Positions 45,741-64,000 of a stretch of DNA of 64,000 nucleotides are shown piece by piece. The notes beneath the pieces are model-generated. The model worked only from the letters and a program-made list of their open reading frames with translations, was not told where the DNA came from and ran no database searches. The position numbers and the translations under genes were made by a program. Within the stretch, counting starts at the first letter, position 1, and every line of letters starts with the position of its first letter. The stretch covers positions 1-64,000 of the forward strand of contig QCKM01000008.1 in NCBI GenBank assembly GCA_003215335.1, read 5' to 3'. The stretch comes from Prochlorococcus sp. AG-409-P01. GTDB taxonomy: Bacteria; Cyanobacteriota; Cyanobacteriia; PCC-6307; Cyanobiaceae.

Positions 45741-45779
45741 AGACATTAATTCTGCTTGAATCTGGCTTTTATAAAATTA

Positions 45780-45932
45780 CTACCGGTCAAATGACCTATG
45801 TTCATTAATCCAGATCTTTTCACTTTCGTTCTGTTGAAAGCGAATACCTTCGGAATGTGTGCAAAGACAATTAGGATTGGCTTCTTGTGAATTCTTTGAG
45901 TGAGCTTTATTATGCTTTAGGCTCGCTGGCAT
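45780..45932 (-). CDS. Small protein (50 aa), uncertain
   Basis: Starts MPASLKHNKAHSKNSQEANP, with CLC near residue 22 and a charged end (EKIWINEHRSFDR). The frame is also open for about 30 codons upstream (including GKTLSNLLEIGSYLC), back to a stop just after the SDR gene, but without a usual start codon. This may be a real small gene or the end of a decayed one. Confidence 0.35.
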   Translation of the reverse strand: MPASLKHNKAHSKNSQEANPNCLCTHSEGIRFQQNESEKIWINEHRSFDR

Positions 45933-46052
45933 GGTTGGATCACTACAAAGATAACTTCCTATTTCTAACAGATTAGAAAGCGTCTTGCCATGTTTATTTA
46001 TTAATACGTCTTTTAAAATAGAATAATCATCCCAGAAAAAAGAATCTCAAAA

Positions 46053-46763
46053 TTATATTTCCAGGTTGCAGTTTAACTTCAGTTCGAATGGGATGCATGA
46101 ATTAGGCAATTCTAATAGTTTTGAGCATACAGATCCAATGTCTTCTGGTTGAGTCATTGACTGCTTAGAAACCATATTTATGTTCGCTGCCATGTCAGTG
46201 TTGACCCAACTAGGACATATTGCTGTAACCCGTATGCCTGAGCTCCAACCCTCGTTTCTCATGGTTTCACACAACCCCATTAATGCAAATTTACTTACCG
46301 TATATCCTGCCAGATTGCTTTTTGACCTTTTCCCACTCATCGAAACTAATACTATTATTCTTCCTTGCCCGTGTTTAGCCAGTTCACTCCAAGCCAATCT
46401 AGTTAGTAACCATGGCCCCATTAAATTAACTTGAATGAGCTTATCTATGTCTTTACGCTCTTCATTATTAAAGTTTAGACCTACATTGTTAAATATCCCC
46501 GCACAATTTACTAATGTATCAAAATTACCAAATCTATTTATAGAGTTTTTAATCCAATTTGTCGCCGATAGTTCATCATTTGCTTCATATTTATTTAGGA
46601 GTATTCTTTCCACTCCGCTGACTTCTGGATCTAAAATACTCCCATATAAGTGACTGGGATTTCTTACTCCAAGACTTATTCTGTGCCCATCTTTAAGTGC
46701 TTTTATGGCTATAGACTTTCCAATACCTCTATTGCCGCCACTTATCAGGATTGTTCTTTTCAT
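46053..46763 (-). CDS. Short-chain dehydrogenase/reductase
   Basis: About 236 residues from the ATG at 46763 (MKRTILISGGNRGIGKSIA). It has the NAD(P) motif GGNRGIG, NCAGIF, and the catalytic SGKRSKSNLAGYTVSKFAL (Ser and YxxxK). The substrate cannot be assigned. It lies about 85 bp downstream of crtL on the same strand. Confidence 0.9.
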   Translation of the reverse strand: MKRTILISGGNRGIGKSIAIKALKDGHRISLGVRNPSHLYGSILDPEVSGVERILLNKYEANDELSATNWIKNSINRFGNFDTLVNCAGIFNNVGLNFNNEERKDIDKLIQVNLMGPWLLTRLAWSELAKHGQGRIIVLVSMSGKRSKSNLAGYTVSKFALMGLCETMRNEGWSSGIRVTAICPSWVNTDMAANINMVSKQSMTQPEDIGSVCSKLLELPNSCIPFELKLNCNLEI

Positions 46764-46847
46764 AAGATGCAATGTAATTGTGAATTACTCTTCATCATTG
46801 AGATCTTGGTGAGCTGAATTCCAATTTAGTAGTTTTCACTTGGAATA

Positions 46848-48212: not shown

Positions 48213-48578
48213 TTCCCCATGCCCACGCTTAGCACCTCCTATTTCTGATATTGAGATTACCCCGTTTTGACTTGTCTTTCTGTCTACTTAGCCGTTTGTT
48301 TTATTACATCAAAATCTAAATTGACCTTGATATGGCTAAGCTTTTTAACAAATCATTCTTTGAAAATCAAAAAACATCACCATTTCTAAGTTGTTTTTTA
48401 AAAGATAAGCTGATTTTACTTAATGCTTTTAAGTCTTATATTATTGGGTTGGCTAATTTATTTGATATGGACTAATAGATAAGATTCTAAAAGAATCCTT
48501 CAATATAATATGCACGAATATAGCATAGTATAATGCATCATATTTAGCTTATAATAATAAATATGCTCATAAATAGAA
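48213..48578. other. AT-rich intergenic region between divergent crtL and POR-like genes
   Basis: About 365 bases, very AT-rich, with repeated short TATA/ATAAT stretches near 48500-48570. It should hold both promoters. No ORF can be supported. Confidence 0.5.
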
Positions 48579-49577
48579 ATGCCTAAGAATACAATACTTA
48601 TGACTGGAGCCAGTTCTGGAATAGGATATCAAGCATCAGCCAATCTTGTTCAGAAAGGGTATAAACTTATTATTCCTTGTCGAGACACTTCAACTTCAGC
48701 TAAGACTTTGCATTCGTTAGAACAGGGAATTTCAGATAAATATTTTTCATCAGAAGATCTTCTGAGTCCATTACTTGACTTGTCGGATTTAGATAGTATT
48801 AAATCGTTTTCCAATGAGCTTCTATCTAAATATACCCATATTGATTGTCTTGTACTTAATGCGGGTTTGCAATATACAGGTAGATCATCTCCTATAAGAT
48901 CGGCTCAAGGAATTGAGCTTACTATAGCTGTTAACCATTTGAGCAATGTTTACCTCATCAATAAAATACTCCCTTTACTTAAATTTTCAAAGAATCCTCG
49001 AATCATTATTACTTCTTCAGAAGTGCATAATCCATTAAGCCCTGGTGGACGTATAGGTGAGAAAGCTTGTTTGGGTAAGTTAGATGGACTGGCAAAAGGA
49101 TATGATTTTGATATGCTCGATGGAGTATCACCATTTAGTGCTGACAAGGCATACAAAGATAGTAAATTGTGTAATATTCTATTCGCAAGAGAATTATCAA
49201 GAAGGCTTTCAATTTTTGCTGACAATATTCCTGTTATAGCTTGGGCACCTGGTTTAGTAATCCCTAGAACTAGATCAGGTTTCTTTCGTTATAGTCGAAA
49301 ATATAATGAGTTGGGATATTTACTATTTTCTTTGTTTGCTCGAGATATATTTCGATTTAGTGTTACTCCTCAGCATGCAGGAGAGCTTCTAGCGAATTTG
49401 TGCGATGATGATTTATATAAAAAAGAAGGATTCAGATTTTATAGTAACAAATTAGTTGGTCCTGGTTTGTTTAAATTCGAAGAGACGGAAGTTAGCTTGG
49501 AAGCTTCTAATGATAATCTTGCGAAAAAATTATGGGATCTAAGTTGTAATGTAATCAACGTTGTATCAGTTATATAG
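48579..49577 (+). CDS. POR-like short-chain dehydrogenase
   Basis: This 332-residue SDR resembles light-dependent protochlorophyllide reductase (POR). Seen: ILMTGASSGIGYQA near the start, LVLNAGLQYTG near 90, NHLSNVYLINKILPLL near 125, SSEVHNPLSPG near 148 and AYKDSKLCNILFARELSRR near 193, the POR-type YKDSKxCN block with the catalytic Tyr and Lys. After it, APGLVIPRTRSGFFR replaces the usual POR loop with its conserved Cys. So it is a POR-related paralogue, and its substrate is uncertain. Confidence 0.85.
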   Translation: MPKNTILMTGASSGIGYQASANLVQKGYKLIIPCRDTSTSAKTLHSLEQGISDKYFSSEDLLSPLLDLSDLDSIKSFSNELLSKYTHIDCLVLNAGLQYTGRSSPIRSAQGIELTIAVNHLSNVYLINKILPLLKFSKNPRIIITSSEVHNPLSPGGRIGEKACLGKLDGLAKGYDFDMLDGVSPFSADKAYKDSKLCNILFARELSRRLSIFADNIPVIAWAPGLVIPRTRSGFFRYSRKYNELGYLLFSLFARDIFRFSVTPQHAGELLANLCDDDLYKKEGFRFYSNKLVGPGLFKFEETEVSLEASNDNLAKKLWDLSCNVINVVSVI

Positions 49578-49609
49578 ATTTATTCTGATTAATATAAGTT
49601 TAATTAGTC

Positions 49610-49783
49610 TTAATCATGAAGCTCTGCTTGATGCAATTTTAATTTAGCCCGTAATGAATAAATTTGTTGTCTAAATATGCCTAGTTCTCCGTTAGTCCAG
49701 TTTTTAGGTTGATCAAGTCTCGCCTCAAGCTCCGATATCCGAGAACGTAGTCGATAAATCTGTATCTCTAGATCTTCATTCAT
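49610..49783 (-). CDS. Small coiled-coil protein (57 aa), unknown
   Basis: The minus strand reads MNEDLEIQIYRLRSRISELE, then ARLDQPKNWTNGELGIFRQQ, then IYSLRAKLKLHQAELHD. The heptad-like Leu/Ile pattern at both ends predicts helices forming a coiled coil or helical hairpin. It lies convergent with the POR-like gene and upstream of the MscS region. Not recognised as a named family. Confidence 0.6.
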   Translation of the reverse strand: MNEDLEIQIYRLRSRISELEARLDQPKNWTNGELGIFRQQIYSLRAKLKLHQAELHD

Positions 49784-49817
49784 TGGTTGACTATATCAGA
49801 TTTGAAGCAAATTGACA

Positions 49818-50886
49818 TTAGGAACTTAGATTAACAGCTTTGATTTCTGAAGCAAGGTTATTTGACTGTTGACTATTAACGTGTATTGTTCTTGTAGGAA
49901 AGGCAAAGCCGATCCCTTCTTTTTCGAAATCTTTAATAATATTTAAATTAATATTTTCTTGTATAGTCATGGCTTTTATATAGTCGTTGCTAGAAACATA
50001 ATATGCGATTTCGAAATCTAGACTGCTATCACCAAACTCTATAAAGTGACATCTGTCAAACTCTGCACCATCATTATCTTCAACAATTTTCTTAATTATG
50101 TTTGGAATTCCCTTTAATTTATCCAACGACGTATCATATACAACACCTAACTTATGTACAAGTCTTCGCTTTTTCATTTCAGCATAATTTGATATTACAC
50201 TTTTAGTTAGAAGACTATTGCTCATTACTATAGCCTCTCCATTTATGCTTCTCAATCTTGTTGACCTAACACCTACCCTTTCTACTGTCGCCCATACATT
50301 CTCAACATTAATAAACTCTCCATCTTGAAATGGCTTGTCTAGTAAAATTGTTATGTATTCAAAGAATTCCTGAACTGGCTCCTTTAATGCAAGGCCAGCT
50401 CCTATTCCACCTGCACTTAATAGAGCCCATATTGCAGCCATTTGAACTCCCATGTTTTGGAGGTAGAAAATTGATCCGATGATCCATATAGTTGCCCTGA
50501 CCATAGGTTTTAATGAGAGCAGCATTCCACTAAACGCATTGTCATCAATACGATATGACCATCTACTGATTATTCTTAGGAGGGTTTTATTGATCAACCT
50601 AACAATTAGAATTAGAAGAATTAGCTTCGCAAAACCAACGACAAAAACATCTATCTCTGAATTTACTGGCAACAACTGCCATGCCAGAGTACAACTTAAT
50701 ACAAATCCTATAGGTTTAATTGAATTGACAAAGATTTCAACTATATAGTCATCGGTTTGGCTTTTTTGTTTTAGACGTAATCTTTACTAGTGCTACCTTG
50801 GATATTCTTTTTATGATTGTTGATATGATTATTCCCGAGATAAGCAATACGGCAGACTGGATTAACGCGGTATACCAAATCTGCAT
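49818..50886 (-). pseudogene. MscS-type mechanosensitive channel, apparently frameshifted near its N-terminus
   Basis: The main frame (49818-50675, about 285 residues) has the MscS core: GGIGAGLALKEPVQEFFEYI, LDKPFQDGEFINVENVWATVERVGVRSTRLR and a beta domain. Its first possible start, TTG, cuts into a membrane helix. The same frame upstream encodes DDYIVEIFVNSIKPIGFVLS, and a start ATG at 50886 in a different frame encodes MQIWYTALIQSAVLLISG and KITSKTKKPN. The two halves join naturally if one base is removed near the T6 run at 50762-50767. It is either a broken gene, a read error, or a shorter channel using the later start. Confidence 0.75.
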
Positions 50887-50930
50887 TTTCAGAAATAGAA
50901 CGGTCTTTAATAAAAATAGCTATTTTTCGA

Positions 50931-51509
50931 CTAAATTCCATTATTTGTCATTTTTTCTTTCGCTAAATTGCTTATTGATTTGAATTGTGGGTTTGAGGCT
51001 CTCTTACACCATTCAAACATTAGTGACTCTGTTGTTGTTATGACAGCTCCTGATTGTCTCATTCTCGCAATTGACACTTCATGGTCATGAGGATATCTGC
51101 TACCAACTGCATCAGATACAACATAGACATCGTAATCCTTAGCTAGTAAATATAGGCATGATTGCAATATACATATATGGGTTTCTATGCCAACTAAAAC
51201 AACACGTTGTATGTTTTGATTAGTATATGAACTCATTAACTCCTTGCAGCCTTCACAACTAAAGCTTTCCTTGGCATGAAATGAGGTTATGAGGTTTGCA
51301 ATTGGTTTAAGCGTAGACCCTAGTTTTGATGGGACTTGCTCTGTCGCGCCAATTCTTACATCAAGACATTTAGCTGCCTTTATGAGTCTTTGTATGTTCC
51401 AAAGTACAAGAGATTTCTGGTCTATTTGACTTATTAATCGTTCTTGAACATCTACTACCAGAATGCTGGTAGTAGATGTTTGGATTTGTTTGTTTTGATT
51501 ATTTCCCAT
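50931..51509 (-). CDS. Isochorismatase-family cysteine hydrolase
   Basis: A 192-residue protein: ILVVDVQERLISQI with the catalytic Asp, the ATEQVPSKLG region near 56, and VVLVGIETHICILQSCLYL with the catalytic Cys near 112. The family includes nicotinamidases and isochorismatases; this one is closest in pattern to the YcaC-like group. The substrate is unknown. It is divergent from the Fur gene. Confidence 0.88.
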   Translation of the reverse strand: MGNNQNKQIQTSTTSILVVDVQERLISQIDQKSLVLWNIQRLIKAAKCLDVRIGATEQVPSKLGSTLKPIANLITSFHAKESFSCEGCKELMSSYTNQNIQRVVLVGIETHICILQSCLYLLAKDYDVYVVSDAVGSRYPHDHEVSIARMRQSGAVITTTESLMFEWCKRASNPQFKSISNLAKEKMTNNGI

Positions 51510-51754
51510 TGATCTCTTGATCTACTTTTAATTATATTAGCAATTTATTAGGTTTTTGAGGTTGCTTTTTCTTTTGGTTCATCAGTCCATTTCACTAATG
51601 TATAATTACCTTTAATTGTCTCTATATCAATTAATAGTTCTTAAGTCATTCATGATGCATCACTTAAAATGTTTTTTTAATTATCCTTTTTCACTGTTTA
51701 CATGCATTTATTGGCTATAGAGGTTACTGTTGAACAGAAACTCGTGATCTGTCG

Positions 51755-52228
51755 TTGTCCTCCTCGTCTTTTGCTGGTTCTGATCGAACACTTGCTTTAG
51801 GCTTGCATCAAGATGGACGTCGTCTTACTCCTCAAAGGAGAATAGTACTTCAATTATTTGAAAGTGTAGGTTCAGGCAAGCATCTTAGTGCTGAAGATGT
51901 ACACCATCATTTATTACAAGCTAATTCTAAGGTCTCCTTGGCCACTATTTATCGGACGCTTAGATTGCTGGTAAGTCTTGGCTTGCTGCATGAATTAGAG
52001 TTAAGTGAAGGTGGTCATCGTTTTGAGCTGGCTAGCCATGATCAACCTGACCACCACCATTTAGTGTGCATTGGTTGTGGAAGAACTGAAGAATTTGAGA
52101 GTGATTCTGTATTAGAGGCTGGACGCAATGCTGCTGAAAACATAGGCTTTAAACTAATCGAATCAACATTAAATGTAAGAGCATTGTGTCCTTCTTGCCA
52201 AAAGCAGGATATGAACATTAGTTCTTGA
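51755..52228 (+). CDS. Fur-family transcriptional regulator
   Basis: A 157-residue protein: a winged helix with TPQRRIVLQLFES and KVSLATIYRTLRLLVSLGLL, then the metal-binding half with HDQPDHHHLVCIGCG and a C-terminal CPSC. Two CxxC pairs form the structural zinc site. It could be the iron (Fur), zinc (Zur) or peroxide (PerR) type; the sequence alone does not settle it. The start is TTG at 51755. No operator can be assigned. Confidence 0.93.
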   Translation: MSSSSFAGSDRTLALGLHQDGRRLTPQRRIVLQLFESVGSGKHLSAEDVHHHLLQANSKVSLATIYRTLRLLVSLGLLHELELSEGGHRFELASHDQPDHHHLVCIGCGRTEEFESDSVLEAGRNAAENIGFKLIESTLNVRALCPSCQKQDMNISS

Positions 52229-52263
52229 ACTCAAAAACAATATAAACAAGTTTGCTTGAAGTT

Positions 52264-53244
52264 CTATTCGTTAATAAGTGCCCCCCCACAACTGGACCCT
52301 GAACCGGCTGTGCAGCCATAGCAATGATCTCCGACTGCAATTCTTTCCCCCAAAAACTGATATTGATGTTTAACCAGACTCTCTAACGTCTTTACTGAGG
52401 CACCTATTTCTATGCTAAGCATTTGATTGAAATCACAATCGTATAATTCACCTTTCCAATTGACACTTATAATCTCTTTACACATTACATTGTTTAGATT
52501 TATTGGATTATGTGAATGCTTCAGAAGTTTCATATAGGCTTCAAATTCATTGTTTAATCTCAATTGCTTCTCGAATCTTTGTATTGGCATATTAGTAATA
52601 GTATATAAATGGTTAAACTCAATGCCATATCTTTCTTGCAGAATTTTGTGGTATGCCTTTTCTAATTCGGCTTGAGGTGCTGGCAGGCTCGCACCTTGAG
52701 GATTGTAGACTAAATTAAGTTTTAGCTTCCCATCAGATTTTCCATACCCCAATTTGTTGAGATCGACCAATCCTTTTATACTCTTTTCAAAAACACCCTT
52801 TCCTCTTTGTTTATCTACATTTTCTTTTTCATAACAAGGAAGAGAAGCAATAATAGTTACATTGTTATTGGCTAAGAAACTTGCTAAATCCCCTTGACCT
52901 GTTTCACTTAATATTGTGAGATTACATCTATCTATAACTTCAATATCTCTATGTCTAGCTTCTTTAACTAAATATCTGAATTTATCATGTAGCTCAGGAG
53001 CTCCGCCTGTGAGATCAATACATGACAAATGATATTTATCCATGACTTCAATTACAAGATCTATATTTTTTTGACTCATCATTTCTTCTCTGTATGGGCT
53101 AGCATCAACATGGCAGTGAGAACAACTTTGATTACATCGGTATCCTAGATTCAATTGAAGGATTGAAAATGACTCTCTTTTTAGATCTGGAAACATTTCA
53201 GTAGTATTTATAATTTGTTGTATAATATCCCTATACATTAACAT
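52264..53244 (-). CDS. Radical SAM protein, ArsS-like
   Basis: About 326 residues from the ATG at 53244 (a TTG nine codons earlier is possible). The iron-sulfur motif CNQSCSHC lies near residue 40, with LTGGAPEL as the GGE-like SAM strand near 85 and a C-terminal cysteine cluster (CDFNQ...CYGCTAGSGSSCGG) that binds a second cluster. This matches the arsenosugar-biosynthesis radical SAM protein ArsS/DUF3641. It lies 60-odd bases after the StpA-like gene on the same strand. No arsM or other arsenic gene is visible. Confidence 0.85.
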   Translation of the reverse strand: MLMYRDIIQQIINTTEMFPDLKRESFSILQLNLGYRCNQSCSHCHVDASPYREEMMSQKNIDLVIEVMDKYHLSCIDLTGGAPELHDKFRYLVKEARHRDIEVIDRCNLTILSETGQGDLASFLANNNVTIIASLPCYEKENVDKQRGKGVFEKSIKGLVDLNKLGYGKSDGKLKLNLVYNPQGASLPAPQAELEKAYHKILQERYGIEFNHLYTITNMPIQRFEKQLRLNNEFEAYMKLLKHSHNPINLNNVMCKEIISVNWKGELYDCDFNQMLSIEIGASVKTLESLVKHQYQFLGERIAVGDHCYGCTAGSGSSCGGALINE

Positions 53245-53306
53245 GTACCATATCTTTATCTTCTTATTCAAGTTTTTGCTGCTTGAATTTTATATTTTGA
53301 TAATAT

Positions 53307-54515
53307 TTATCTTTGGTTTATGGCTCGGCTAAGATTGCAGAACCAGCGTATATATTCGTCGGGACCTCCAGGAAATAGCAAATTAAACTTTAGTGTGTCA
53401 TCAGCGTCAGTGATTCCTTTTAATTCTTTATTATTAAAGCTAGGTCTATTGACTTCCCCACCACTACTATCTACAACCAGCACTTGATTCTCTTTCTTAT
53501 ATTGCCTGCCTAACTCTTGAATCAATGTTAGAAAGCCCCTGTCACTTCCTCCTCTTAGCCACATGTTCTTGTTGGTACAAAAGGTTGATGTAATGGTATC
53601 TCCGACTCCAATTAGCAGTGGCATATGCTCTGGCTTGATTTCCTCTATGCAAAGTCGTACCATTTCTTTTTGTGTACTTGGTGCGTTCCTTGCATTAAAT
53701 TCATTTCCTAGTGGATGATATCCATGCTTTTGCTCTATGTGATCATTTATTAAAACCAGTAACCCAGCTTCTTTTATTGCACCTTTTAGCATGAATTGGA
53801 TATCTGTTGTGCCAATATCATTTTGATCTGCATATTTTATTACTTCTTTCCCATTATTAACCCCTAGATTAGGAGCCTTATGTAGAAAAAATGAGTTATC
53901 AAGCCCACTATTCTTGGCGGATTGCAATTGACATTCCATAACATCTTCTATTACCAATTGTAGTTTTCTCATTACATCTAAGTCCCAATTGATAAATGCA
54001 AAAAGGTTGTTTAAATTTATGGTAGGCGAAAGCTCAGTATCCAGTATTGATTTACTTGTAAGTTCATCAAGCTTTTCATCAGTTAGTTTTACAAATAGTT
54101 TCTTCAATTTTGTCCTTAGCATACTTTGCATTTCACTTGGCCTCGACTGAAGAAATACTATTTCGCTCTGCTTTATACCAGGAAGATCAATTATACCTTT
54201 TATGTTTTGTCTTTGAACACCTCCTGCAGCTAGGCCAGATAAATATATTTCTTTGGCTTTCGAAGAGATTAGATTGGAATTCATTGCTTTCTCAACCAAT
54301 TTGTTAAGACCCCTAGCACCTTCGAATTCACCGTTCGTAAGTACTTTTAAACGATCCCCCAAATTATCAGCAGCATAAACATAATCAGGGCTTAGTAATC
54401 GAGTAAGCGGATCATTAACTAATTGCATACATACTCCATCCATGTCCTGAATAATGAGGAAGTCATTATGCTTTACTTTTAGCTCCTGTATCAAGTTACT
54501 CTTGGCAATTTCCAT
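53307..54515 (-). CDS. stpA: Glucosylglycerol 3-phosphatase-like protein (StpA family)
   Basis: A 402-residue protein with IIQDMDGVCMQLVNDPLTRLL near residue 21 and YVYAADNLGDRLKVLTNGEFEGARG near 45, matching cyanobacterial StpA, the phosphatase that releases the osmolyte glucosylglycerol. The DMDG and the later GVGDTITSTF resemble HAD-type acidic motifs. The synthase GgpS is not in this window. It faces a GpsA-like gene across a 250-bp divergent promoter and is followed by the ArsS-like gene. Confidence 0.82.
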   Translation of the reverse strand: MEIAKSNLIQELKVKHNDFLIIQDMDGVCMQLVNDPLTRLLSPDYVYAADNLGDRLKVLTNGEFEGARGLNKLVEKAMNSNLISSKAKEIYLSGLAAGGVQRQNIKGIIDLPGIKQSEIVFLQSRPSEMQSMLRTKLKKLFVKLTDEKLDELTSKSILDTELSPTINLNNLFAFINWDLDVMRKLQLVIEDVMECQLQSAKNSGLDNSFFLHKAPNLGVNNGKEVIKYADQNDIGTTDIQFMLKGAIKEAGLLVLINDHIEQKHGYHPLGNEFNARNAPSTQKEMVRLCIEEIKPEHMPLLIGVGDTITSTFCTNKNMWLRGGSDRGFLTLIQELGRQYKKENQVLVVDSSGGEVNRPSFNNKELKGITDADDTLKFNLLFPGGPDEYIRWFCNLSRAINQR

Positions 54516-54765
54516 CTCAACCCAAAATTGACTTTTACCATTAAAACATATTATTTCGCTTAATTAAAAATATGATAGACTACTGCTAATTGATTTTAGC
54601 TGAATATATCGATAAAAACCTCTTTATAGCAAAATAAAAATACAGGATTCAATGAACTTTTTGAGTAATCATATATAATGAATAAGTTGGGATGGGTTTT
54701 CTCCTTAAGATATTTTTTGCCTAAAGGAGATTCCATTTTTTTGATTTGAAGATTTTGGAGTTCTG
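54516..54765. promoter_or_regulatory. Divergent promoter region between StpA-like and GpsA-like genes
   Basis: 250 AT-rich bases separate the two start codons. TATGATAGACT near 54570 and TATATAATG near 54671 are -10-like, one for each direction, but neither has a convincing -35. The shared control region ties the two arms of the locus together. Confidence 0.4.
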
Positions 54766-56295
54766 ATGCAAAACAGTTTTTTTCAACATCTACTAGATGC
54801 CAACCAAATAAGAAGACGTCTTTTAGAGATTGATTCTGGTTTTATAGGTTTTTATAGCATAGGTTTATATCCTTTGTCCTTGGCATATAACTGTGTAATG
54901 CAAACTAAAAGCTTAAAACTGTTGTTGGCAACTAGACCAAATCGAGAATTATTTGGAGCATTATCTGATTCCGATTTAGCTAGGATGAGTCCTAATCATA
55001 TTGAGACAATAGAATCACTAGCTTTTCACACCAAGAATTCATCCTCTCTACCTAATACTCTTACTTATTTAATTGAAAAATGTGAGCTGGTTGTATTAAG
55101 TGCTAACAGCAATCATATTGAAAAGGATCTAGTTGAAGCTAAGGAGATCAGGAAGAAACTTGGGCGTGAAAATGTTGTCTTGGCATGCTTAGCTGGTTCC
55201 TTTTGTCATGATGATAATTCACACGATTCATATATACTTTGTGAAAAGGAACCTAACATAGCTTTCTTTTCTGGTTTTCATAGGCACGGAGCTTTATGTA
55301 ATCCATTAGATAGCTTTACAGCTAATTTTACTCACCCCGATGCTTTGTCTGCTCTTTTAGGAGCAAAAATGCTTGATAAACTCTCACCCAACATTCAAGT
55401 TTCATCTGGTATTCATAATTTAGAAGGACAATATATTAAAGCTGTTAAGAACATGTCTTCAATATTTGCTGGATTTGCATACAGTTACCATTCAGACAAG
55501 CCAGCTCTTCTGACAACCTTACTTACCCTTTTGTTAGACCAATGTCTAGATCAAGCGGCAAGTGTTTCAATGCTAAGGTCAGACCGTAAAAAAATCTATA
55601 GCGAGCAGCCATTTCCTCTGACCGAGCTAGGTTATGGTGTTCAAAAAATTGAGGCTTCTTTGGTAAAGGATGGCGACTATGAGTTGGTCAGAGATCATAC
55701 TTTTTCACAATTGACCGCAATGGTTGCTGATGTAAAAGGTAGTTTAATGTTACCTATCAATGGTAAGCCAACTAGAAACTTTCAAGCAGGTCAAGTGTTA
55801 GCCAAATTTGTAGCAGATAATAAGAGATGTCCTCTAGATATTGATGAATTTACAAATGAATGTATAGATGCTGGTCTTACATCAGGTGGTTTAGAGGGGC
55901 TTAAATCATTGCGATTTTGGCCAGATATATCGAAAAAGTATCAAATACCTTTACATGATTGCTCTATGATCAACCTACTCTATATCACCATTTATGGTAA
56001 AAATCAGATCAAGCAAAATACCTATAACGTTCTAACTGATAGTAGAGAATTAACTAATTTCTGTCAGGAGTCTGTTAGACCTACTCATAGTCGTATTTAT
56101 TCAGAAGCTTTAGATAACCTTGATAAGAGTGAATCTATGGACTTACTAATTGGTGCTGTTCAATCTATTAACTCTCTACAATTTACAGAACGAAAAGACC
56201 CATATCTATCCACCAATAATATCTCTTCACCAGTCTTTCCAGCTTATATTAAGGCTATGAGCTATATTGAAAATATCTTTCAAGAATCAATTTGA
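54766..56295 (+). CDS. Glycerol-3-phosphate-dehydrogenase-like protein
   Basis: A 509-residue protein. It has a weak dinucleotide-fold start (FIGFYSIGLYPLSLAYN) without a clean GxGxxG, CELVVLSANSNHIEKDL (like the strand-loop GpsA uses) near 110, and QYIKAVKNMSSIFAGFAYS near 230, which aligns with the ALKNVIAIAAG helix of GpsA with its catalytic Lys. MVADVKGSLMLPINGKPTRNF near 325 is like its C-terminal GDL...SRN(R/F) segment. It is longer than GpsA (about 330). So it is a distant, possibly specialised relative. Function not proven. Confidence 0.6.
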   Translation: MQNSFFQHLLDANQIRRRLLEIDSGFIGFYSIGLYPLSLAYNCVMQTKSLKLLLATRPNRELFGALSDSDLARMSPNHIETIESLAFHTKNSSSLPNTLTYLIEKCELVVLSANSNHIEKDLVEAKEIRKKLGRENVVLACLAGSFCHDDNSHDSYILCEKEPNIAFFSGFHRHGALCNPLDSFTANFTHPDALSALLGAKMLDKLSPNIQVSSGIHNLEGQYIKAVKNMSSIFAGFAYSYHSDKPALLTTLLTLLLDQCLDQAASVSMLRSDRKKIYSEQPFPLTELGYGVQKIEASLVKDGDYELVRDHTFSQLTAMVADVKGSLMLPINGKPTRNFQAGQVLAKFVADNKRCPLDIDEFTNECIDAGLTSGGLEGLKSLRFWPDISKKYQIPLHDCSMINLLYITIYGKNQIKQNTYNVLTDSRELTNFCQESVRPTHSRIYSEALDNLDKSESMDLLIGAVQSINSLQFTERKDPYLSTNNISSPVFPAYIKAMSYIENIFQESI

Positions 56296-56374
56296 CGATA
56301 CTATTGCGAATACAAATAAGTATTATTTAACTAAACTTGATCATTTTAACTTACGTTCTCTAACATGATTTCAT

Positions 56375-57523
56375 ATGGATACGCCGAACAGCAATTATCA
56401 ACACAAGCCACATTTTACCCAGATGCAATTGATAGATATAGCCTCTCATTTTCTCGAGAAGTCTTGTATTAGAGAAATAATAGAAATTCAGATAGGCAAT
56501 ATTAATGATACATATTTAGTTACATTCACAAATAAACTTCATACAAATAAATACATTCTACAAAGATTAAATATGAATATTTTTCCTTCTATTCAAAAGC
56601 TTATGAATAATTATTCAGTGGTTTCAGATCATCTTGTGAATAAACTAAACCTCGAATTTGAGAAGCCAGTATTTGAATTCAAGCCTATATGTCTACTTCA
56701 ACCTAAACAAAGTGAATCCTCTTATCTAACGAAGGATGAATCAATCTGGAGGATGATGAATTATATAGAAGGATATTGTATTACTGAAATGTGCAATTCA
56801 TCAGACTTAGTATTTCAGATAGGATACGGTCTGGGAACATTTCATTTTTATACACATGATCTTTCACATTATTTTCTCGAAGAAACAATTAATGACTTTC
56901 ACGTCTTGTCTAAATATTTAGCCTCTTATGACAGCATCCTCAACTCAACTCTTCTAGAAGATAATCATAAAATCGAGTTTTGTTCACATGTTATTCATCA
57001 TTACCGTTCAGATTTTTATTATTTTGAGCACGCTCTCTCTATAGGCGCAATACATAAATCCGTTGTACATGGAGACCCAAAAATAAGCAATTTTATTTTT
57101 GATAGTATGTCTGATCGTTTTCTTTCCTTGATTGATTTGGATACAGTATCACCAGGTTTGATTTATTTTGATCTCGGTGACTGTGTAAGGTCATGTTGTA
57201 ATCTGCTAGGAGAGGATACACAACTATTTAGTGATGTTGAATTTGATATAAATTCATTCGAACTGTTGTTTAAGGGTTATCTTTCAACATATGGTAGCTT
57301 TATTTCCGTCTCTGATATTGAACCTATATCTGAGGCTGTTCAATTACTGCCATTTGAACTTGGAGTGCGTTTCTTTACAGATTACTTATGTGGTAATACT
57401 AATTTTAAGACAAATTATCCTTCTCAGAATTTAGATCGTGCATATGTTCAGTTTCTACTATATAAAAGTATATTAAGTCAAAAGCATAGTATCATTTCAA
57501 TACTAAATGATTTAATTCAATAA
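56375..57523 (+). CDS. NahK-like phosphotransferase (sugar kinase of the APH fold)
   Basis: A 382-residue protein: IGNINDTYLV near residue 41 and YILQRLNMNIFPSIQKLMNN near 63 match the N-terminus of N-acetylhexosamine 1-kinases. SVVHGDPKISNFIFD (catalytic Asp, Asn) near 230 and SLIDLDTVSPGLIYFDLGD (metal Asp) near 252 are the APH-type kinase site. NahK-type enzymes phosphorylate a sugar at C1. The substrate here is unknown. It is 80 bp after the GpsA-like gene and 3 bp before the next gene. Confidence 0.75.
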   Translation: MDTPNSNYQHKPHFTQMQLIDIASHFLEKSCIREIIEIQIGNINDTYLVTFTNKLHTNKYILQRLNMNIFPSIQKLMNNYSVVSDHLVNKLNLEFEKPVFEFKPICLLQPKQSESSYLTKDESIWRMMNYIEGYCITEMCNSSDLVFQIGYGLGTFHFYTHDLSHYFLEETINDFHVLSKYLASYDSILNSTLLEDNHKIEFCSHVIHHYRSDFYYFEHALSIGAIHKSVVHGDPKISNFIFDSMSDRFLSLIDLDTVSPGLIYFDLGDCVRSCCNLLGEDTQLFSDVEFDINSFELLFKGYLSTYGSFISVSDIEPISEAVQLLPFELGVRFFTDYLCGNTNFKTNYPSQNLDRAYVQFLLYKSILSQKHSIISILNDLIQ

Positions 57524-57526
57524 TTT

Positions 57527-58069
57527 ATGGCAAGGCTTGCTATATCTACTAATAATATTCACGTATTGGAATCAGATGACATGGCAATTGGTAATAATAT
57601 TATCGGTAATTCAGCATATGTTTGGAAATATGGTGGCGACCTAACACTAGACTTTAGCTTTAGATCTACCCGTAAATCCGATTTTGATGATTTAGTTCCT
57701 ATTAATGACCATACGTTTCAATCACCTAGTTTCATTTCATTCAACCAAACATGCTTCCAGGCATTAATTTATCAACCAAAACAAACTATGTATTGGAGGC
57801 TCAGAGTTTCTATGGCAAAGACTTTAAGCATTGATTTCTATCCTCACTCTGATAAGAAAAAATCTATAATAATTCTAGAAAATAGACCAAACATATCCAT
57901 TGAAACTTCTGGTGAAATGCTTACTTGTCATACGCATATCAAAATGAGCCAATGGTACACATCCAAGTCTGAACCAATCATAGAAATGTCTGCAGTATTG
58001 GATATTCGCCAACTAGGTTCAAGTAATTGGACTTGTAAGCAATCTACTATTTCCAACTCACTAGAATGA
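57527..58069 (+). CDS. Unknown protein in the StpA/GpsA/kinase locus
   Basis: A 180-residue protein, MARLAISTNNIHVLESDDMA at the start, with alternating beta-strand-like sequence (YVWKYGGDLTLDFSF, TMYWRLRVSMAKTLSIDFYP) and no membrane helix or signal. I do not recognise a family. It follows the kinase by 3 bp and is almost certainly translated from the same mRNA, so it belongs to the same process. Confidence 0.65.
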   Translation: MARLAISTNNIHVLESDDMAIGNNIIGNSAYVWKYGGDLTLDFSFRSTRKSDFDDLVPINDHTFQSPSFISFNQTCFQALIYQPKQTMYWRLRVSMAKTLSIDFYPHSDKKKSIIILENRPNISIETSGEMLTCHTHIKMSQWYTSKSEPIIEMSAVLDIRQLGSSNWTCKQSTISNSLE

Positions 58070-58110
58070 ATAATTGAACAAACTAATTTAATGGATATTA
58101 TATTTGATTT

Positions 58111-58365
58111 TTAATTTGTATCTGATTTGGTGTGTATAGTTAAAACATCTTTATTGATATCCTTTAGGGAGTTATTGATTCCTGTAATCGAATATGCAAT
58201 AGAAACTACTGATATTATAAGTATTAAATTGTACAGGGACTTGCCATGTTTTTGGGCTAGTATCTCAAGGTCAGTATCCATAATATAATCAATTAACCTT
58301 AATAGTCTCTTCCTAAATCTTGGGATAAATAAATTCCTCATTTTCCTAGCCAATGTACTTCTCAC
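58111..58365 (-). CDS. Small membrane-anchored protein (84 aa), unknown
   Basis: GTG start; a very basic N-terminus (MRSTLARKMRNLFIPRFRKR) is followed by one helix near residues 46-63 (LILIISVVSIAYSITGI) and a short charged end. It lies 13 bp after a second small gene on the same strand. Not recognised. Confidence 0.55.
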   Translation of the reverse strand: MRSTLARKMRNLFIPRFRKRLLRLIDYIMDTDLEILAQKHGKSLYNLILIISVVSIAYSITGINNSLKDINKDVLTIHTKSDTN

Positions 58366-58378
58366 TTGGATTTGATTT

Positions 58379-58525
58379 TTATTCTAATTCCAGGGTCCTT
58401 GCAGCGACACTGACCTCTTGACTATTCTCATTTGTACGTAGAACTGCGTCAGCTAGATCTTTTGCTAGTTCTTCTTTGATTGCCGACATGGCTGCTGAAA
58501 GTGGACAAGTTACCTCTTCACTCAT
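58379..58525 (-). CDS. Small acidic protein (48 aa), unknown
   Basis: The minus strand reads MSEEVTCPLSAAMSAIKEEL, then AKDLADAVLRTNENSQEVSV and a short end (AARTLELE). A helical, acidic, compact sequence, found only by reading this strand. It is 13 bp upstream of the membrane gene, so the two may form a small operon. Confidence 0.5.
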   Translation of the reverse strand: MSEEVTCPLSAAMSAIKEELAKDLADAVLRTNENSQEVSVAARTLELE

Positions 58526-58725
58526 GATGCATGCAATGATTTTTTTGAATTATCGCCAACTTATTTGCATCTGCCGTCTACCTTTACAAGATTGTTTTAA
58601 ATACATGGCCTTTGTTCGGTACAGGATATATAAGCGTTATTTTCTTTACTATTGCTAAAGGTTTGCCGGTTTTCGTGAATAGTGATTGCTGAGGCGAGCT
58701 ACCGCTTTTTCTAGGGACTTTTTGC

Positions 58726-58962
58726 TTAGGCCGCTTCGGAAATTATATTTGCATCATGAGATCTCCAGTATTCCATTTCTTCTTTACTCCACTGTAATTG
58801 GTAAATCACAGTTTCACTGCCATTTGACTGGGTGGAACGCCAATGAGTACCTTGTTTTAGGTAGCCAGCTCTTCTCCAGGTCTGAAGGGTTTTTACATCT
58901 ACATTCAAGTGTCGACAAGCATCATCTGCTGTGCCCCAGCGGTGGTTGCTCATTACGGACAT
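58726..58962 (-). CDS. Helix-turn-helix DNA-binding protein
   Basis: About 78 residues from MSVMSNHRWGTADDACRHL. DDACRHLNVDVKTLQTWRRAGYL looks like an excisionase/MerR-type winged helix, with a hydrophobic core after it (VIYQLQWSKEEMEYW). The frame is open for 39 more codons upstream, but that part is basic and unlike a protein, so the ATG at 58962 (or three codons later) is preferred. It may control the neighbouring small genes. Confidence 0.65.
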   Translation of the reverse strand: MSVMSNHRWGTADDACRHLNVDVKTLQTWRRAGYLKQGTHWRSTQSNGSETVIYQLQWSKEEMEYWRSHDANIISEAA

Positions 58963-59109
58963 GATTTTTCTTATAAATACCGTTATTCTCTGGATTAGCA
59001 AGCTTCTACGTGTTAGGTTCAACACTAATTTTAGATTGATTACCCTATTACAATCATTAACGTTGTATGTACTTCTCATTTAAATACTGATTTACCTATC
59101 TCATTAGTG

Positions 59110-59490
59110 ATGTCAAATACAATTTTTTTTAAAATTACAATAACTTTCTCTTGTATTTTTTCTTTTATATCCTGGTTTAATTTCTATTTAAATGGCATAT
59201 TGCTATGGATTCCAACCGGTGTATCACTGCTAATAATACTCTTATGTATATTTAAGGGTCCTTATTTTGTTAATAAACTATTTTTTATACCTGGACTTAA
59301 TTTTTCACCATCAAAGATCCTTCTTAGAATATCTGCTTTTATTTATTTCTTCTCATCTATGCATGGTATGATATTTACACTTTGGCATGTTCCGATTAAT
59401 GATAAAAGTGTAATGGCTTTTCCTATTATTATAATGGCTTGCATTTTCTCTGGTGCAATTTTAAGCCTTATTCAGGTAACTAGAATATGA
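59110..59490 (+). CDS. Hypothetical membrane protein (126 aa)
   Basis: Begins MSNTIFFKITITFSCIFSFI at 59110 (a GTG one codon earlier is possible) and has four hydrophobic segments near residues 5-25, 32-50, 70-88 and 98-118. It is low in GC and rich in Ile and Phe. Not recognised. Confidence 0.6.
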   Translation: MSNTIFFKITITFSCIFSFISWFNFYLNGILLWIPTGVSLLIILLCIFKGPYFVNKLFFIPGLNFSPSKILLRISAFIYFFSSMHGMIFTLWHVPINDKSVMAFPIIIMACIFSGAILSLIQVTRI

Positions 59491-59603
59491 AGTAAAATAT
59501 CTTCTAATCCTGTTTGTTTATTTTATTAGCAATTCAGAACATTCATTTCTTCAATAGCATATAATAAAATCTCAATTCTTAATAGCACCTCTTTAAACGA
59601 GCC

Positions 59604-59759
59604 ATGACAGGATATCTTCTTTTGTTTTTATTTATAAGCATCATTTCTTTTATTGGTTATCGTTTTTATAGGGCTGAAGTCAATTATCAAATGAAAACTA
59701 GACCTAAACCATATTTAAAATATAGACGAGGTTATAAAAGGACACATAGAATTAAATAA
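59604..59759 (+). CDS. Small single-helix membrane protein (51 aa)
   Basis: ATG at 59604 reads MTGYLLLFLFISIISFIGYR, then a strongly basic tail (KPYLKYRRGYKRTHRIK). The helix-then-basic-tail shape is a clean inner-membrane pattern, with the tail inside. Not recognised. Confidence 0.55.
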   Translation: MTGYLLLFLFISIISFIGYRFYRAEVNYQMKTRPKPYLKYRRGYKRTHRIK

Positions 59760-59796
59760 ACTGTTATCTGTAATAAACAAATTTGATGAGCCCAAT

Positions 59797-59841
59797 ATTA
59801 ATACTAAATTTAGTATTAATTTAGTATTAATATTAATACTA
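59797..59841. repeat. Two adjoining perfect palindromes of a 10-bp half-site
   Basis: 59797-59820 is a 24-bp perfect palindrome (ATTAATACTA, AATT, TAGTATTAAT), and 59822-59841 is a 20-bp perfect palindrome of the same half-site in reverse order. So four copies of TAGTATTAAT or its complement sit within 45 bp. It lies between a small membrane gene and the NdhF-like gene. Confidence 0.75.
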
Positions 59842-59903
59842 GTACTTTTCTCATAGGCGTTAGTATAATTATGTAGGAAATTTAATTCATAGCCAGTCAA
59901 ATA

Positions 59904-60776
59904 ATGGAACTTCGTTTTATGCTCGCATACCTTGTCCCATCTTTACCATTCCTTTCATCTACTCTGCTTGGATTCCTTCTTTTGTTGTTTCCAAAGACTG
60001 TCAAAAGGCTTGGCAAGCCTGTTTCTGCTCTCACTCTTTTGTTTTTGACCCTTTCAGCTTTATTAAGTATATGGCTAACGCTTACCTCTATAAATGAACA
60101 TTTAAACTTAACCACTCATTTGTTTTCTGACTTAGAAATATTAGACCATTCATTCGACATCGCTTTTCACCTTGACTCTATATTTTTTTATTCTCTTAGT
60201 GTTTTAACTACACTCTCATTGATTTTTCTTTTTTTCGCGCAAAGGTTCCTTTCAGGAAAAAAAGTGTATGTTCCATTTGTTATTCTAGCAGGCCTTTATT
60301 TTGGTCTTGTTTATTTAATGTTTGGATTAGCAGATATATATCAATTAACCATAGTCTATGTAGCCTTAGCTATACCAACATACTTCATGAATGGCATATT
60401 GACGGATGAATTCAAATTGTCTAATAGTATAAGCAATCTTTTCAAGCTTGATTATTTAGCTGTTATTTTTTTCCCACTGGCAACATTCAAGTTGGCAACT
60501 GGATCAGATACATTTTTTATTGTTGACATTTTAGATCAAAATAATTCAATTCTTTCTAATCTTAATCTAATTAGTTCACACATATCTATATTCATCTTTC
60601 TTTTGCTAGCAATAGTACCAAAGATAGTCCAATTCCCCTTTTTGTTGCTAACGCCCTCTAAATCCTCAACATCACCTGATTCTCTATTGGCAGTTTTCTC
60701 TCTAGCAAACTTCTTTGTAATTATTTACCTTGTTTTAAGATTCTCGGCTCTATTCAATTTCTATCTCATTAACTGA
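59904..60776 (+). CDS. Short NdhF/NuoL-like membrane protein
   Basis: A 290-residue, about eight-helix protein that starts ELRFMLAYLVPSLPFLSSTL like the N-terminus of proton-pumping NDH-1 subunits. VPKIVQFPFLLLTPSKSSTS near 243 and PDSLLAVFSLANFFVIIYLVLR near 263 echo the [23 protein letters not shown] segment of NdhF/NuoL, but with several key residues changed. Real NdhF is over 600 residues, so this is a truncated or specialised paralogue. Function unknown. Confidence 0.65.
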   Translation: MELRFMLAYLVPSLPFLSSTLLGFLLLLFPKTVKRLGKPVSALTLLFLTLSALLSIWLTLTSINEHLNLTTHLFSDLEILDHSFDIAFHLDSIFFYSLSVLTTLSLIFLFFAQRFLSGKKVYVPFVILAGLYFGLVYLMFGLADIYQLTIVYVALAIPTYFMNGILTDEFKLSNSISNLFKLDYLAVIFFPLATFKLATGSDTFFIVDILDQNNSILSNLNLISSHISIFIFLLLAIVPKIVQFPFLLLTPSKSSTSPDSLLAVFSLANFFVIIYLVLRFSALFNFYLIN

Positions 60777-60857
60777 CCACTCTTATTAATTATTAGCTAT
60801 TCGTATGGCCAATTCATATCGCTCCTGATATTATTATGATTGCCTACTTTGCTCCTT

Positions 60858-61181
60858 ATGGAAAATCTATCACTTATTAAATTTAGCTCTGAGGATTGTG
60901 GAACCTGTCACAAAATGAGTCACTACGACTCTAAGGTTTCACAGGAAGTTGGATGTGAATTTATCAGTGTAATCCTGCAAGATGTTCAATCATACAGGCA
61001 ATACCGTAAGATCCTTCTTTCTAAATACCCTACAAAAGAAGGTATGGGATGGCCTACCTATCTTCTCGTTACTGATCCACTTGGAGAATTCACTATATAT
61101 GGTGAGATTAAGGGAGGGATGCCTAAAGGTGATTTTCGAAACAAGCTTACTGAATTAGTAGAATCAGCCAAGAATAAATAA
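60858..61181 (+). CDS. Thioredoxin-like protein
   Basis: About 107 residues from the ATG at 60858 (MENLSLIKFSSEDCGTCHKM). The CGTC redox motif sits after a beta strand, and GWPTYLLVTDPLGE near 73 gives the cis-Pro-like loop (WPT). A small cytoplasmic thiol-disulfide protein or peroxiredoxin partner. It follows the NdhF-like gene on the same strand and converges with mfd. Confidence 0.8.
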   Translation: MENLSLIKFSSEDCGTCHKMSHYDSKVSQEVGCEFISVILQDVQSYRQYRKILLSKYPTKEGMGWPTYLLVTDPLGEFTIYGEIKGGMPKGDFRNKLTELVESAKNK

Positions 61182-61190
61182 TATTAATGA

Positions 61191-64000
61191 TTATCCATTT
61201 TGTAAATCATTTGTTGCCTGCATAGTTGAACTCATTTGTGAAAACCAGTCAATAAGTTGTTCTAATTGTTTGTCAATTGGCAAATTTGTAAGTCCCCGTA
61301 CTAGTACTTTGGCTTTTAGTCCTGATTCTTTCTGATATATCAGCCTTCCATGTAAATGACTGGGCAACCCTTTCCTCAAATATCTAAATGCAGATTCTTC
61401 CATTTGTGTATCCATAATTATGTTTGCTTCATTTCTTCTGATTCTTGAGAAGCCATTGGCCTTTGCTAGTAATTTTAATTTCATCAGCACTATTAGAGAT
61501 TCAACTGCTTTTGGCAACGATCCGTATCGATCTGTCCAGACAGCAGCAAGATCAAACAACTCATCCATACTCTTACAATCTGATGCTGCTCTATAGGCTG
61601 ATATTTTTTCTTCGCTATCTGTTATCCAATCCGCTGGAATAAATGCTGTTATAGGTAGATCTATCTGTGTATCATCTACAGGTGTTATTTTCTCACCCTG
61701 AACATTTGCTAATTCTTCTTGTAGCATCTCCATATATAAATCAAAGCCTATTAACTCCATCTGTCCACTTTGTTCTACACCAAGTAAATTTCCAACTCCT
61801 CTTATTTCCATATCTCTCATTGCTAATTGATATCCACTGCCCAGTTGTGTGAACTCTTGGATTGCCCTTAACCTCTGTCTTGCATTAGCACTTAATTTTT
61901 CTTGTGTTGGATAAAACAACCATGCATGTGCTTGAACACCACTTCTTCCAACCCTTCCTCTTAATTGATACAGCTGTGCTAAACCAAATTTATGTGCATC
62001 TTCAATCAGAATTGTATTGACTCTTGGTATATCCAAACCACTTTCAACAATTGTGGTGCATAACATCAAATCTGCTTCACCTGCATTAAAAGCTACCATT
62101 GCATTTTCTAATTCTCCTTCATGCATTTGACCATGAGCTACTATTAATTTTAGGGTTGGAAGCATTTGTCTTAAATCTGTAGCTACTCTTTCGATACTTT
62201 GTATTCTTGGCACAACATAGAAAACTTGGCCACCTCGATCAATCTCCTGCCTAATTGCACTCCTGACGACCTCGCTATCTAATTCGGCTAAGTGTGTTTT
62301 GATTGGTCTTCTTGAAGGAGGTGGAGTTGTAATCAAACTCATTTCTCTTACACCTGATAAGCTCATATATAATGTTCTTGGAATAGGTGTTGCCGATAAT
62401 GTAAGTACATCTACGTTGCTTTTTATGCTTTTTATCTTTTCTTTCTGCTTTACACCAAACCTTTGCTCTTCATCTACTACTAGCAGGCCTAGATCTTTAA
62501 ATTGTATTTTCTTATTTAAGAGTAGATGTGTCCCTATTAAAAGATCTACTTTGCCTTGCCTTAAGCCATTCGATATGTCTTCTTTTTCTTTAGATGTGCG
62601 AAACCTATTAAGTAGACTAAGTTTTATTGGGTATGCCGAGAATCTATCAGATAATGTTCTCCAATGTTGTTGAGATAATATTGTTGTAGGAGCCAAAAAA
62701 GCAACCTGTTTTCCAGATGTAATTGCTTTAAATATTGCACGTATAGCTACTTCAGTCTTTCCAAAACCAACATCTCCACATATTAATCTATCCATTGGAA
62801 GATTTTTTTCCATGTCATTCTTCACATCATCTGCAGCTTTTTTTTGGTCAGGTGTTGTTTCATAGGGAAAAGAGTCTTCTAGTTCTCTTTGCCAAGGTCC
62901 ATCTGGGGGGAATGCATATCCTTTGGTTTTTAGCCTTTCCGCGTAAAGCCTTATCAGATCAGCTGCAACTTTTTTAATGGCTTTCGAAGCCCGTTCTTTG
63001 GCTTTTAGCCAGGAAGCACCTCCCATCTTATTGATTTTTGGACTCGTAGTTTCATTACTTCTGTATCTACCTAAGCTTCCTAATTGATCAGCTGCCACCC
63101 TTAGAAGTCCATCTAGATATTCAACAACTAAATAGTCTCTGTATTGATTGCTTATAGCAAATTTTTCCATTTTTATAAATCTTCCTATACCATGTGTTCG
63201 ATGAACAATGAAATCTCCTGGGTTTATCTTATTTGGATTAAGTGTTTTACTAGAACTCTTGTTCCTTCTTCTAATATATCCAGTCGACTCTAGAGATAAC
63301 CTACCAAAGAACTCCCTATCGGTTATTACGACAATTTTCCATGGTTTAAGATGCAGTCCTTCAAAGTCTATGTTGCTATTTATTTTTAATGCTACTGGAG
63401 TCTTCTGTTCCAGTAGCTTGTTTATAGAATTCAAATCATTGTTGTTTGGTATAAATTTCGCGAAACAGTCATGTTCTTCTAATAGTGCACAAGCTCTACT
63501 GGGTTGAGATGAGATAATCCAAATGTGTTGATTTTCTTTTTGATAGTCTTTTATTTTTTGTGCTGTTTTACCAAATTGATTCGCATACGTCTCAACTGCA
63601 TTAGTTGATAGGTTGAAATGGTTTTCTCCTATGAAATCATTTTCTAGTTCAGTTAGGTCAAAGCCATGAAAACTATTTATTTGTTTGTTACACTCCTCAG
63701 CTGTTCTAATAAGATTGTTAGGTAAAATAGTTTTCAAATCTAGTTCTTCATTATCACTTTTTTCACTTATTTCATTGTAATGTTCATTAGCATGTTCTGT
63801 CCATTTAGTGCAATGTGTATTGCATTGACTTCTTTCATCAACAACAACATAGTAATCTTTTGAGATGTAATCTAATAAATTAGCTGGACATTCCCAAGCG
63901 AGGCTTATAAATCTTTTCATACCTTCTGGTGTAAGACCTTCTTTTAACTCTTCATAAGCTTTTTGTCCCAGTAGTACTTCTATTTTTTTTTGATTGTATT
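61191..64000 (-). CDS. mfd: Transcription-repair coupling factor Mfd, N-terminus beyond window edge
   Basis: The minus-strand frame is open from its stop at 61191 to the right edge, about 936 codons, with no stop before 64000. Seen: the RNA-polymerase-interaction domain (NPGDFIVHRTHGIGRF), Walker A GDVGFGKTEVA, DEEQRFG (Walker B), TLSATPIPRTLYMSL, then CTTIVESGLDIPR and QLRGRVGRS of the translocase. The UvrB-like N-terminal domain is only partly in view. Mfd removes stalled RNA polymerase and recruits UvrA. The apparent start near 63920 is internal, because the frame continues upstream. Confidence 0.96.
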   Translation of the reverse strand, partial: YNQKKIEVLLGQKAYEELKEGLTPEGMKRFISLAWECPANLLDYISKDYYVVVDERSQCNTHCTKWTEHANEHYNEISEKSDNEELDLKTILPNNLIRTAEECNKQINSFHGFDLTELENDFIGENHFNLSTNAVETYANQFGKTAQKIKDYQKENQHIWIISSQPSRACALLEEHDCFAKFIPNNNDLNSINKLLEQKTPVALKINSNIDFEGLHLKPWKIVVITDREFFGRLSLESTGYIRRRNKSSSKTLNPNKINPGDFIVHRTHGIGRFIKMEKFAISNQYRDYLVVEYLDGLLRVAADQLGSLGRYRSNETTSPKINKMGGASWLKAKERASKAIKKVAADLIRLYAERLKTKGYAFPPDGPWQRELEDSFPYETTPDQKKAADDVKNDMEKNLPMDRLICGDVGFGKTEVAIRAIFKAITSGKQVAFLAPTTILSQQHWRTLSDRFSAYPIKLSLLNRFRTSKEKEDISNGLRQGKVDLLIGTHLLLNKKIQFKDLGLLVVDEEQRFGVKQKEKIKSIKSNVDVLTLSATPIPRTLYMSLSGVREMSLITTPPPSRRPIKTHLAELDSEVVRSAIRQEIDRGGQVFYVVPRIQSIERVATDLRQMLPTLKLIVAHGQMHEGELENAMVAFNAGEADLMLCTTIVESGLDIPRVNTILIEDAHKFGLAQLYQLRGRVGRSGVQAHAWLFYPTQEKLSANARQRLRAIQEFTQLGSGYQLAMRDMEIRGVGNLLGVEQSGQMELIGFDLYMEMLQEELANVQGEKITPVDDTQIDLPITAFIPADWITDSEEKISAYRAASDCKSMDELFDLAAVWTDRYGSLPKAVESLIVLMKLKLLAKANGFSRIRRNEANIIMDTQMEESAFRYLRKGLPSHLHGRLIYQKESGLKAKVLVRGLTNLPIDKQLEQLIDWFSQMSSTMQATNDLQNG

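Follow-up and report, generated by a model that had tools for sequence, protein, structure and literature searches.

Introduction

In the Synechocystis PCC 6803 type of pathway for the osmoprotectant glucosylglycerol, GgpS and StpA (also GgpP) are accompanied by GgtABCD, GghA, GlpK and GlpD, and a split arrangement of ggpP (SYNW0860) and ggpS (SYNW1281) has already been described in WH8102 (PMC2874817). We have analyzed a stretch of 64,000 nucleotides from Prochlorococcus sp. AG-409-P01 (contig QCKM01000008.1, positions 1 to 64,000; hereafter called the window), in which the segment 52264-58069 carries the salt-tolerance phosphatase gene stpA, arsS, the gene of p509 (a diverged GpsA-fold protein and the main subject of this report), a NahK-like kinase gene and the gene of a small protein, p180. 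The source genome belongs to Cyanobiaceae, is 1.78 Mb in size and is 99.5% complete. It shares StpA, GgpS (on contig 13), and GlpK and GlpD (on contig 5) with the Synechocystis PCC 6803-type pathway; unlike in that pathway, stpA is unlinked to ggpS and clustered with arsS, and p509 is added as a proposed step forming glycerol 3-phosphate (G3P).

Every glycerolipid requires G3P, and the closest described counterparts of p509 are the dehydrogenases GpsA and GPD1 (PF01210 plus PF07479; PDB 1txg, 1n1e and 1x0v). The marine variant of G3P dehydrogenase in the literature is a flavin adenine dinucleotide (FAD)-dependent GlpD, assigned to marine strains as "glpA" in place of gpsA (PMC9361551), and its fold is unrelated to that of p509. 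According to PMC3369817, EC 1.1.1.94 has no annotation in Prochlorococcus strains or in WH7803; WH7803 carries p509 and has no PF07479 match. Our literature search found no paper that ties p509 to this gap and no report of GpsA-like proteins in picocyanobacteria. In our view p509 is likely to be a strongly diverged G3P dehydrogenase that uses NAD(P)H to convert dihydroxyacetone phosphate (DHAP) to G3P, and that evolved within the marine glucosylglycerol module and replaced GpsA in marine picocyanobacteria.

Predicted fold and catalytic positions of p509

In a profile search, p509 matched no Pfam or NCBIfam family at cut-off; the window protein stayed below the cut-offs of both PF01210 and PF07479, and a search of phage records gave no p509 match. 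Since no family library recognizes p509, its description as GpsA-like in a first-pass annotation, made from the sequence alone, was a real inference. The AlphaFold model of p509, built from 32 homologues (predicted local distance difference test, pLDDT, 87.5; predicted template modelling score, pTM, 0.87), has the two-domain fold of G3P dehydrogenases and was searched with Foldseek against 350,542 PDB chains. The top 15 matches, with prob 1.00, E of 3.8e-9 at best and TMt of 0.70 at most, are without exception G3P dehydrogenases; their sources are Leishmania, Dunaliella, human and archaea. Other enzymes of the 6PGDH superfamily come after them with TMt of about 0.45. While GpsA has about 335 residues, p509 has 509, and the roughly 170 extra residues include additional C-terminal helices beyond about residue 395.

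Residues of p509 and GpsA were put in register by motif and secondary structure, with invariance assessed in 112 homologues of p509 and motifs compared with those of 21 cyanobacterial GpsA proteins. The catalytic and substrate positions of GpsA, namely K-N (LKN), D, T or S four positions after it, R-N and E-G, are matched in p509 by K228-N229, D322, S326, R337-N338 and E377-G378, all of which are invariant in the 112 homologues. The corresponding motif pairs, with p509 given first, are EGQYIKAAKNMSSIFAG and GVELGGTLKNVIAIAAG, ADVRGS and GDLLAT, TRNFQAG and SRNYRVG (SRNYxxG/TRNFxxG type), and LEG and AEG. The modelled fold and these kept positions support the GpsA-like guess and make it probable that the protein supplies G3P, as the annotation had proposed; p509 would thus be GpsA-like in anatomy and lie outside the sequence definition of the GpsA family. 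In favour of the assignment, one p509 homologue reaches PF07479 at E 0.0087 over residues 294-418. Just past strand beta-2, R57 and R60 are invariant and would suit NADP as the cofactor.

Distribution of p509 in Cyanobiaceae

We surveyed 271 Cyanobiaceae genomes, each at least 90% complete. Both p509 and StpA are present in 179 of them, StpA alone in 6 and p509 alone in 2. The distribution of p509 is complementary to that of canonical GpsA: 159 genomes have p509 only, 83 GpsA only, 22 both and 7 neither (Fisher p 4e-40), the last number being compared with about 55 predicted under independence. Two of these seven (G013 and G100) are StpA-bearing drafts of 90-94% completeness, and the remaining five come from the set of genus g18.

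Among the 105 genomes with GpsA, where p509 occurs sporadically across several genera, p509 and ggpS are found together in 21, each without the other in 1, and neither in 82. In RCC307 and one relative, p509 lies inside a cluster ordered ggpS-ggtBCDA-p509-stpA-gghA. Because of this tracking and this linkage, we associate p509 with the glucosylglycerol module wherever GpsA is also present in Cyanobiaceae, and the placement of the locus with glucosylglycerol in the first-pass annotation is borne out. The two freshwater strains reported to have ggpSP, CH-040 and ATX 6A2 (PMC9361551), both carry p509. Exceptions to the module are SynAce01 (locus L172), which has p509 and ggpS with no StpA match, and genome G287, which has ggpS and StpA with no p509.

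The order of stpA, divergent p509 and usually nahK is syntenic in most marine Cyanobiaceae loci, and because of this recurrence the arrangement is not due to chance. Since a segment fur-arsS-stpA-p509-nahK is common to most of the genomes compared and marine Cyanobiaceae are related, the co-occurrence of p509 and StpA could reflect shared marine ancestry, with p509 a hitchhiking neighbour of unrelated function in a conserved segment. This seems improbable to us, because both genes are present without being adjacent in four genomes (G023, G025, G029 and G053), the pair also turns up sporadically in strains from fresh or brackish water that belong to several genera, and in RCC307 and its relative the genes are arranged differently, together with ggpS and ggt genes. 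Beyond picocyanobacteria, p509 was also found in marine Xenococcaceae, Acaryochloris, Leptolyngbya and others, and within 3 kb of these genes there was no consistent partner (FHA, LpxB, LpxA-like, SecF, CorA, MFS and other genes were seen).

Proposed supply of glycerol 3-phosphate and the glucosylglycerol pathway

The absence of GgpS noted in the first-pass annotation holds for the window and fails for the genome, which has an intact ggpS on contig 13 (21428-22885), open to its terminal stop and scoring 777.6 bits with TIGR02398 against a cut-off of 569; glpK and glpD adjoin each other on contig 5 (936-3936). With this ggpS present, ordinary glucosylglycerol synthesis suffices in this genome; the pathway is of the ordinary kind, split into two parts, and the locus in the window is one half of it. 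A new product on account of missing GgpS, as the annotation had suggested, is therefore not supported here, while the suggestion comes close to the situation of 106 relatives that have stpA and p509 without ggpS.

In the proposed scheme, p509 would reduce DHAP with NAD(P)H to G3P, GgpS would join G3P with glucose from ADP-glucose to give glucosylglycerol-phosphate, StpA would remove the phosphate to give glucosylglycerol, and GlpK and GlpD would recover glycerol. Among 24 genomes tested, GlpD and GlpK occur together in 12 of 12 with ggpS and in 0 of 12 without it. The genes glpK and glpD are neighbours there, present or absent together with ggpS, which is consistent with recovery of glycerol from glucosylglycerol.

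Six complete genomes without ggpS (G003, G010, G017, G028, G038 and G055) have no GpsA, GlpD or GlpK and keep p509 and StpA. Because these three enzymes are absent, p509 is the only candidate source of G3P found in the six genomes, and FAD-dependent GlpD or GlpK is ruled out as a general replacement of GpsA. As to the order of events, we infer that p509 and the marine glucosylglycerol module originated together, that picocyanobacteria then lost GpsA and p509 took over the supply of G3P for membrane lipids too, and that ggpS, glpK and glpD disappeared later from part of Prochlorococcus, with p509 staying as the source of G3P for lipids.

Several observations weigh against the assignment of p509 as a G3P dehydrogenase. 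Detection of homology between p509 and GpsA from sequence only gave nothing significant: the profile-profile probability is about 1%, below significance, and the best Pfam score of a p509 homologue is 16.7 bits against a cut-off of 25. The nucleotide loop is SxGxYP (S31-x-G33-x-Y35-P36) in p509 versus GxGxWG in GpsA, with the middle glycine and the aromatic residue kept, and the lysine of the GpsA "TKG" loop, which we take to be K120 of human GPD1, is replaced by A, S or V at position 143 of p509. The genome counts are phylogenetically correlated and hence not independent. Furthermore, GpsA is kept in 21 of the 24 searched p509 genomes outside picocyanobacteria, so that p509 is not simply a replacement of GpsA there.

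The altered loop, the lost lysine and the extra residues, together with the near-perfect pairing of p509 with StpA, would also suit a non-catalytic or regulatory protein of the GpsA fold; such a protein might, for instance, sense G3P, DHAP or NAD(P)H and regulate the activity of StpA or GgpS. We regard such a role as unlikely, since all the other catalytic positions are invariant, Prochlorococcus would be left without a known source of G3P, and a regulator that was kept once ggpS had gone would have to act on something else.

StpA and ArsS in genomes with and without ggpS

Both StpA and ArsS score above the cut-offs of their curated families. The StpA of the window scores 498 bits with TIGR02399 (cut-off 365.5) and 499 bits with PF09506 and has an intact HAD-type DxDG motif; the ArsS protein scores 451 bits with TIGR04167, an equivalog model with a cut-off of 300, matches PF12345 and has the CxxxCxxC motif. 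The genes stpA and arsS share a strand in the window, with arsS 35 bp further downstream, and arsS is the same-strand neighbour of stpA in 24 of 24 cohort loci where both were found. In all eight ggpS-less genomes inspected, arsS is the next downstream gene after stpA and has the same orientation, with a gap of 691 bp in G028.

StpA is kept without ggpS in 106 of the surveyed genomes. Among the 88 StpA positions that are invariant in ggpS-bearing genomes, 69 are unchanged in eight ggpS-less genomes, including D24, D26 and G27 of the DxDG motif, and because of this StpA is not decaying there. It is conceivable that p509 reduces another keto-phosphate or keto sugar-phosphate, the product of which StpA would dephosphorylate to a glycerol-type solute without GgpS; the 106 genomes with StpA and p509 and no GgpS would fit this, as would H172, R173 and H174, conserved specifically in the p509 family where GpsA has GPN. 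We give it a slim chance, because p509 follows ggpS where GpsA is present, which points to G3P supply, because the closest folds are specifically those of G3P dehydrogenases, and because the gap in G3P for lipids would stay.

StpA may have a second substrate in the ggpS-less genomes, which would account for its being kept after the loss of GgpS; this substrate is possibly a glycosyl-glycerol phosphate of an arsenosugar route. The pair of p509 and StpA might then make a glycerol-capped product without GgpS in these more than 100 Prochlorococcus-type genomes, in one concrete form a glycerol arsenosugar, for which a putative transferase would link G3P from p509 to the arsenic-containing ribose derived from ArsS, and StpA would strip the phosphate. 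We hold this to be a long shot; we know of no enzyme for the transferase and phosphatase steps toward glycerol arsenosugar, and a literature search on the step following ArsS found nothing useful. If true, StpA would be a general glycosylglycerol-phosphate phosphatase.

The NahK-like kinase and p180

The kinase matches NahK (PDB 4ocj) with E 3.3e-36 over residues 18-376, nearly its full length (phmmer), and also PF01636, and its motifs HGDPKISN and IDLDT are intact, giving the HxDxxxxN and DxD pattern of the APH fold. Although it shares the motifs of NahK, it is a distant homologue, with NahK-type activity as a prediction. The small protein p180 matched no Pfam or NCBIfam family in the profile search; its model (pLDDT 78.8) is a beta-sandwich, for which Foldseek gave 4jpq, a putative carbohydrate-binding protein, and the CBM9 structure 7nwo (prob 1.00, E only 2e-3 to 6e-3). 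As judged from this model, p180 is probably a carbohydrate-binding protein. In each of the six loci with a p180 gene, this gene follows the kinase gene at a distance of -49 to 3 bp, with 3 bp in the window.

It may well be that the kinase and p180 make up a recycling unit of their own, for cell-wall material or amino sugars, and are simply encoded downstream of p509; we lean toward this view, which is compatible with p509 being a G3P dehydrogenase. The kind of the two proteins, a NahK-like kinase and a CBM9/DOMON-like protein, points in this direction, as does a lytic transglycosylase-domain gene near 14 cohort loci, mostly just downstream of the kinase, and the absence of nahK from G003 and G017, where stpA and p509 are kept. 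On the other side, nahK follows p509 by 5-50 bp in several genomes, which is compatible with co-transcription. The idea of the first-pass annotation that a C1-kinase recycles the sugar of the solute is not supported, given these absences of nahK and its frequent position before the transglycosylase gene. We regard the kinase and p180 as looser neighbours, not as a step of glucosylglycerol metabolism.

Organization of the locus

The features of the locus are listed in Table 1. All five open reading frames were found where the first-pass annotation had placed them, including the spacing of the kinase and p180 genes, so that its observation is confirmed, while its interpretation is partly supported. 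A motif scan of the locus gave promoter-like and terminator-like hits no more often than chance would.

Table 1. Features of the segment 52264-58069 of the window
Feature	Position	Strand	Basis
arsS, arsenosugar-biosynthesis radical SAM protein	52264..53271	-	TIGR04167, PF12345
stpA/ggpP, glucosylglycerol-phosphate phosphatase	53307..54515	-	TIGR02399, PF09506
Intergenic region, 250 bp, separating divergent stpA and p509	54516..54765	no strand	
p509, diverged GpsA-fold protein, 509 aa, proposed glycerol-3-phosphate dehydrogenase	54766..56295	+	Model, Foldseek, conserved residues
NahK-like N-acetylhexosamine/anomeric sugar kinase, APH fold	56375..57523	+	PDB 4ocj, PF01636
p180, 180 aa, DOMON/CBM9-like beta-sandwich, probable carbohydrate-binding protein	57527..58069	+	Model, Foldseek

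Four loci (L053, L055, L060 and L071) have a pair of genes for a Rad50/SbcC-like ATPase (about 883-918 aa) and an SbcD/Mre11-like nuclease (405-442 aa) between p509 and nahK, and L068 has a phosphoesterase remnant alone in this place, which suggests that the interval is an insertion hotspot. In L057 and L061, from one genus, the gap between stpA and p509 is 3.3-4.7 kb and includes a Rieske/pheophorbide-a-oxygenase-like gene and others. Four loci labelled as metagenome-assembled genomes of Gammaproteobacteria (L139, L140, L142 and L170) have p509 with stpA or with nahK/p180 at about 61% identity, and are most likely mis-binned picocyanobacterial contigs. Across the last third of the window (44000-64000), the G+C content falls from about 0.42 to 0.32-0.36. 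Beyond p180, at 58726-59490, there are an HTH_17-type gene of 117 aa on the minus strand and a gene for a probable membrane protein of 127 aa on the plus strand, and these small genes have no cluster partners among the other compared loci.

Implications

Prochlorococcus and marine Synechococcus contribute roughly one quarter of primary production in the sea (PMC6753628). For these organisms, which are without the normal enzyme, p509 would explain the supply of G3P for both the lipid backbone and glucosylglycerol. If p509 is the missing dehydrogenase, a hole in the metabolic models of picocyanobacteria would be filled, and p509 would define a subgroup of G3P dehydrogenases that Pfam and NCBIfam do not detect and that was recruited together with the osmolyte module of marine strains. 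The survival of StpA without GgpS would become directly testable, and one enzyme would link the synthesis of lipids with that of the osmolyte.

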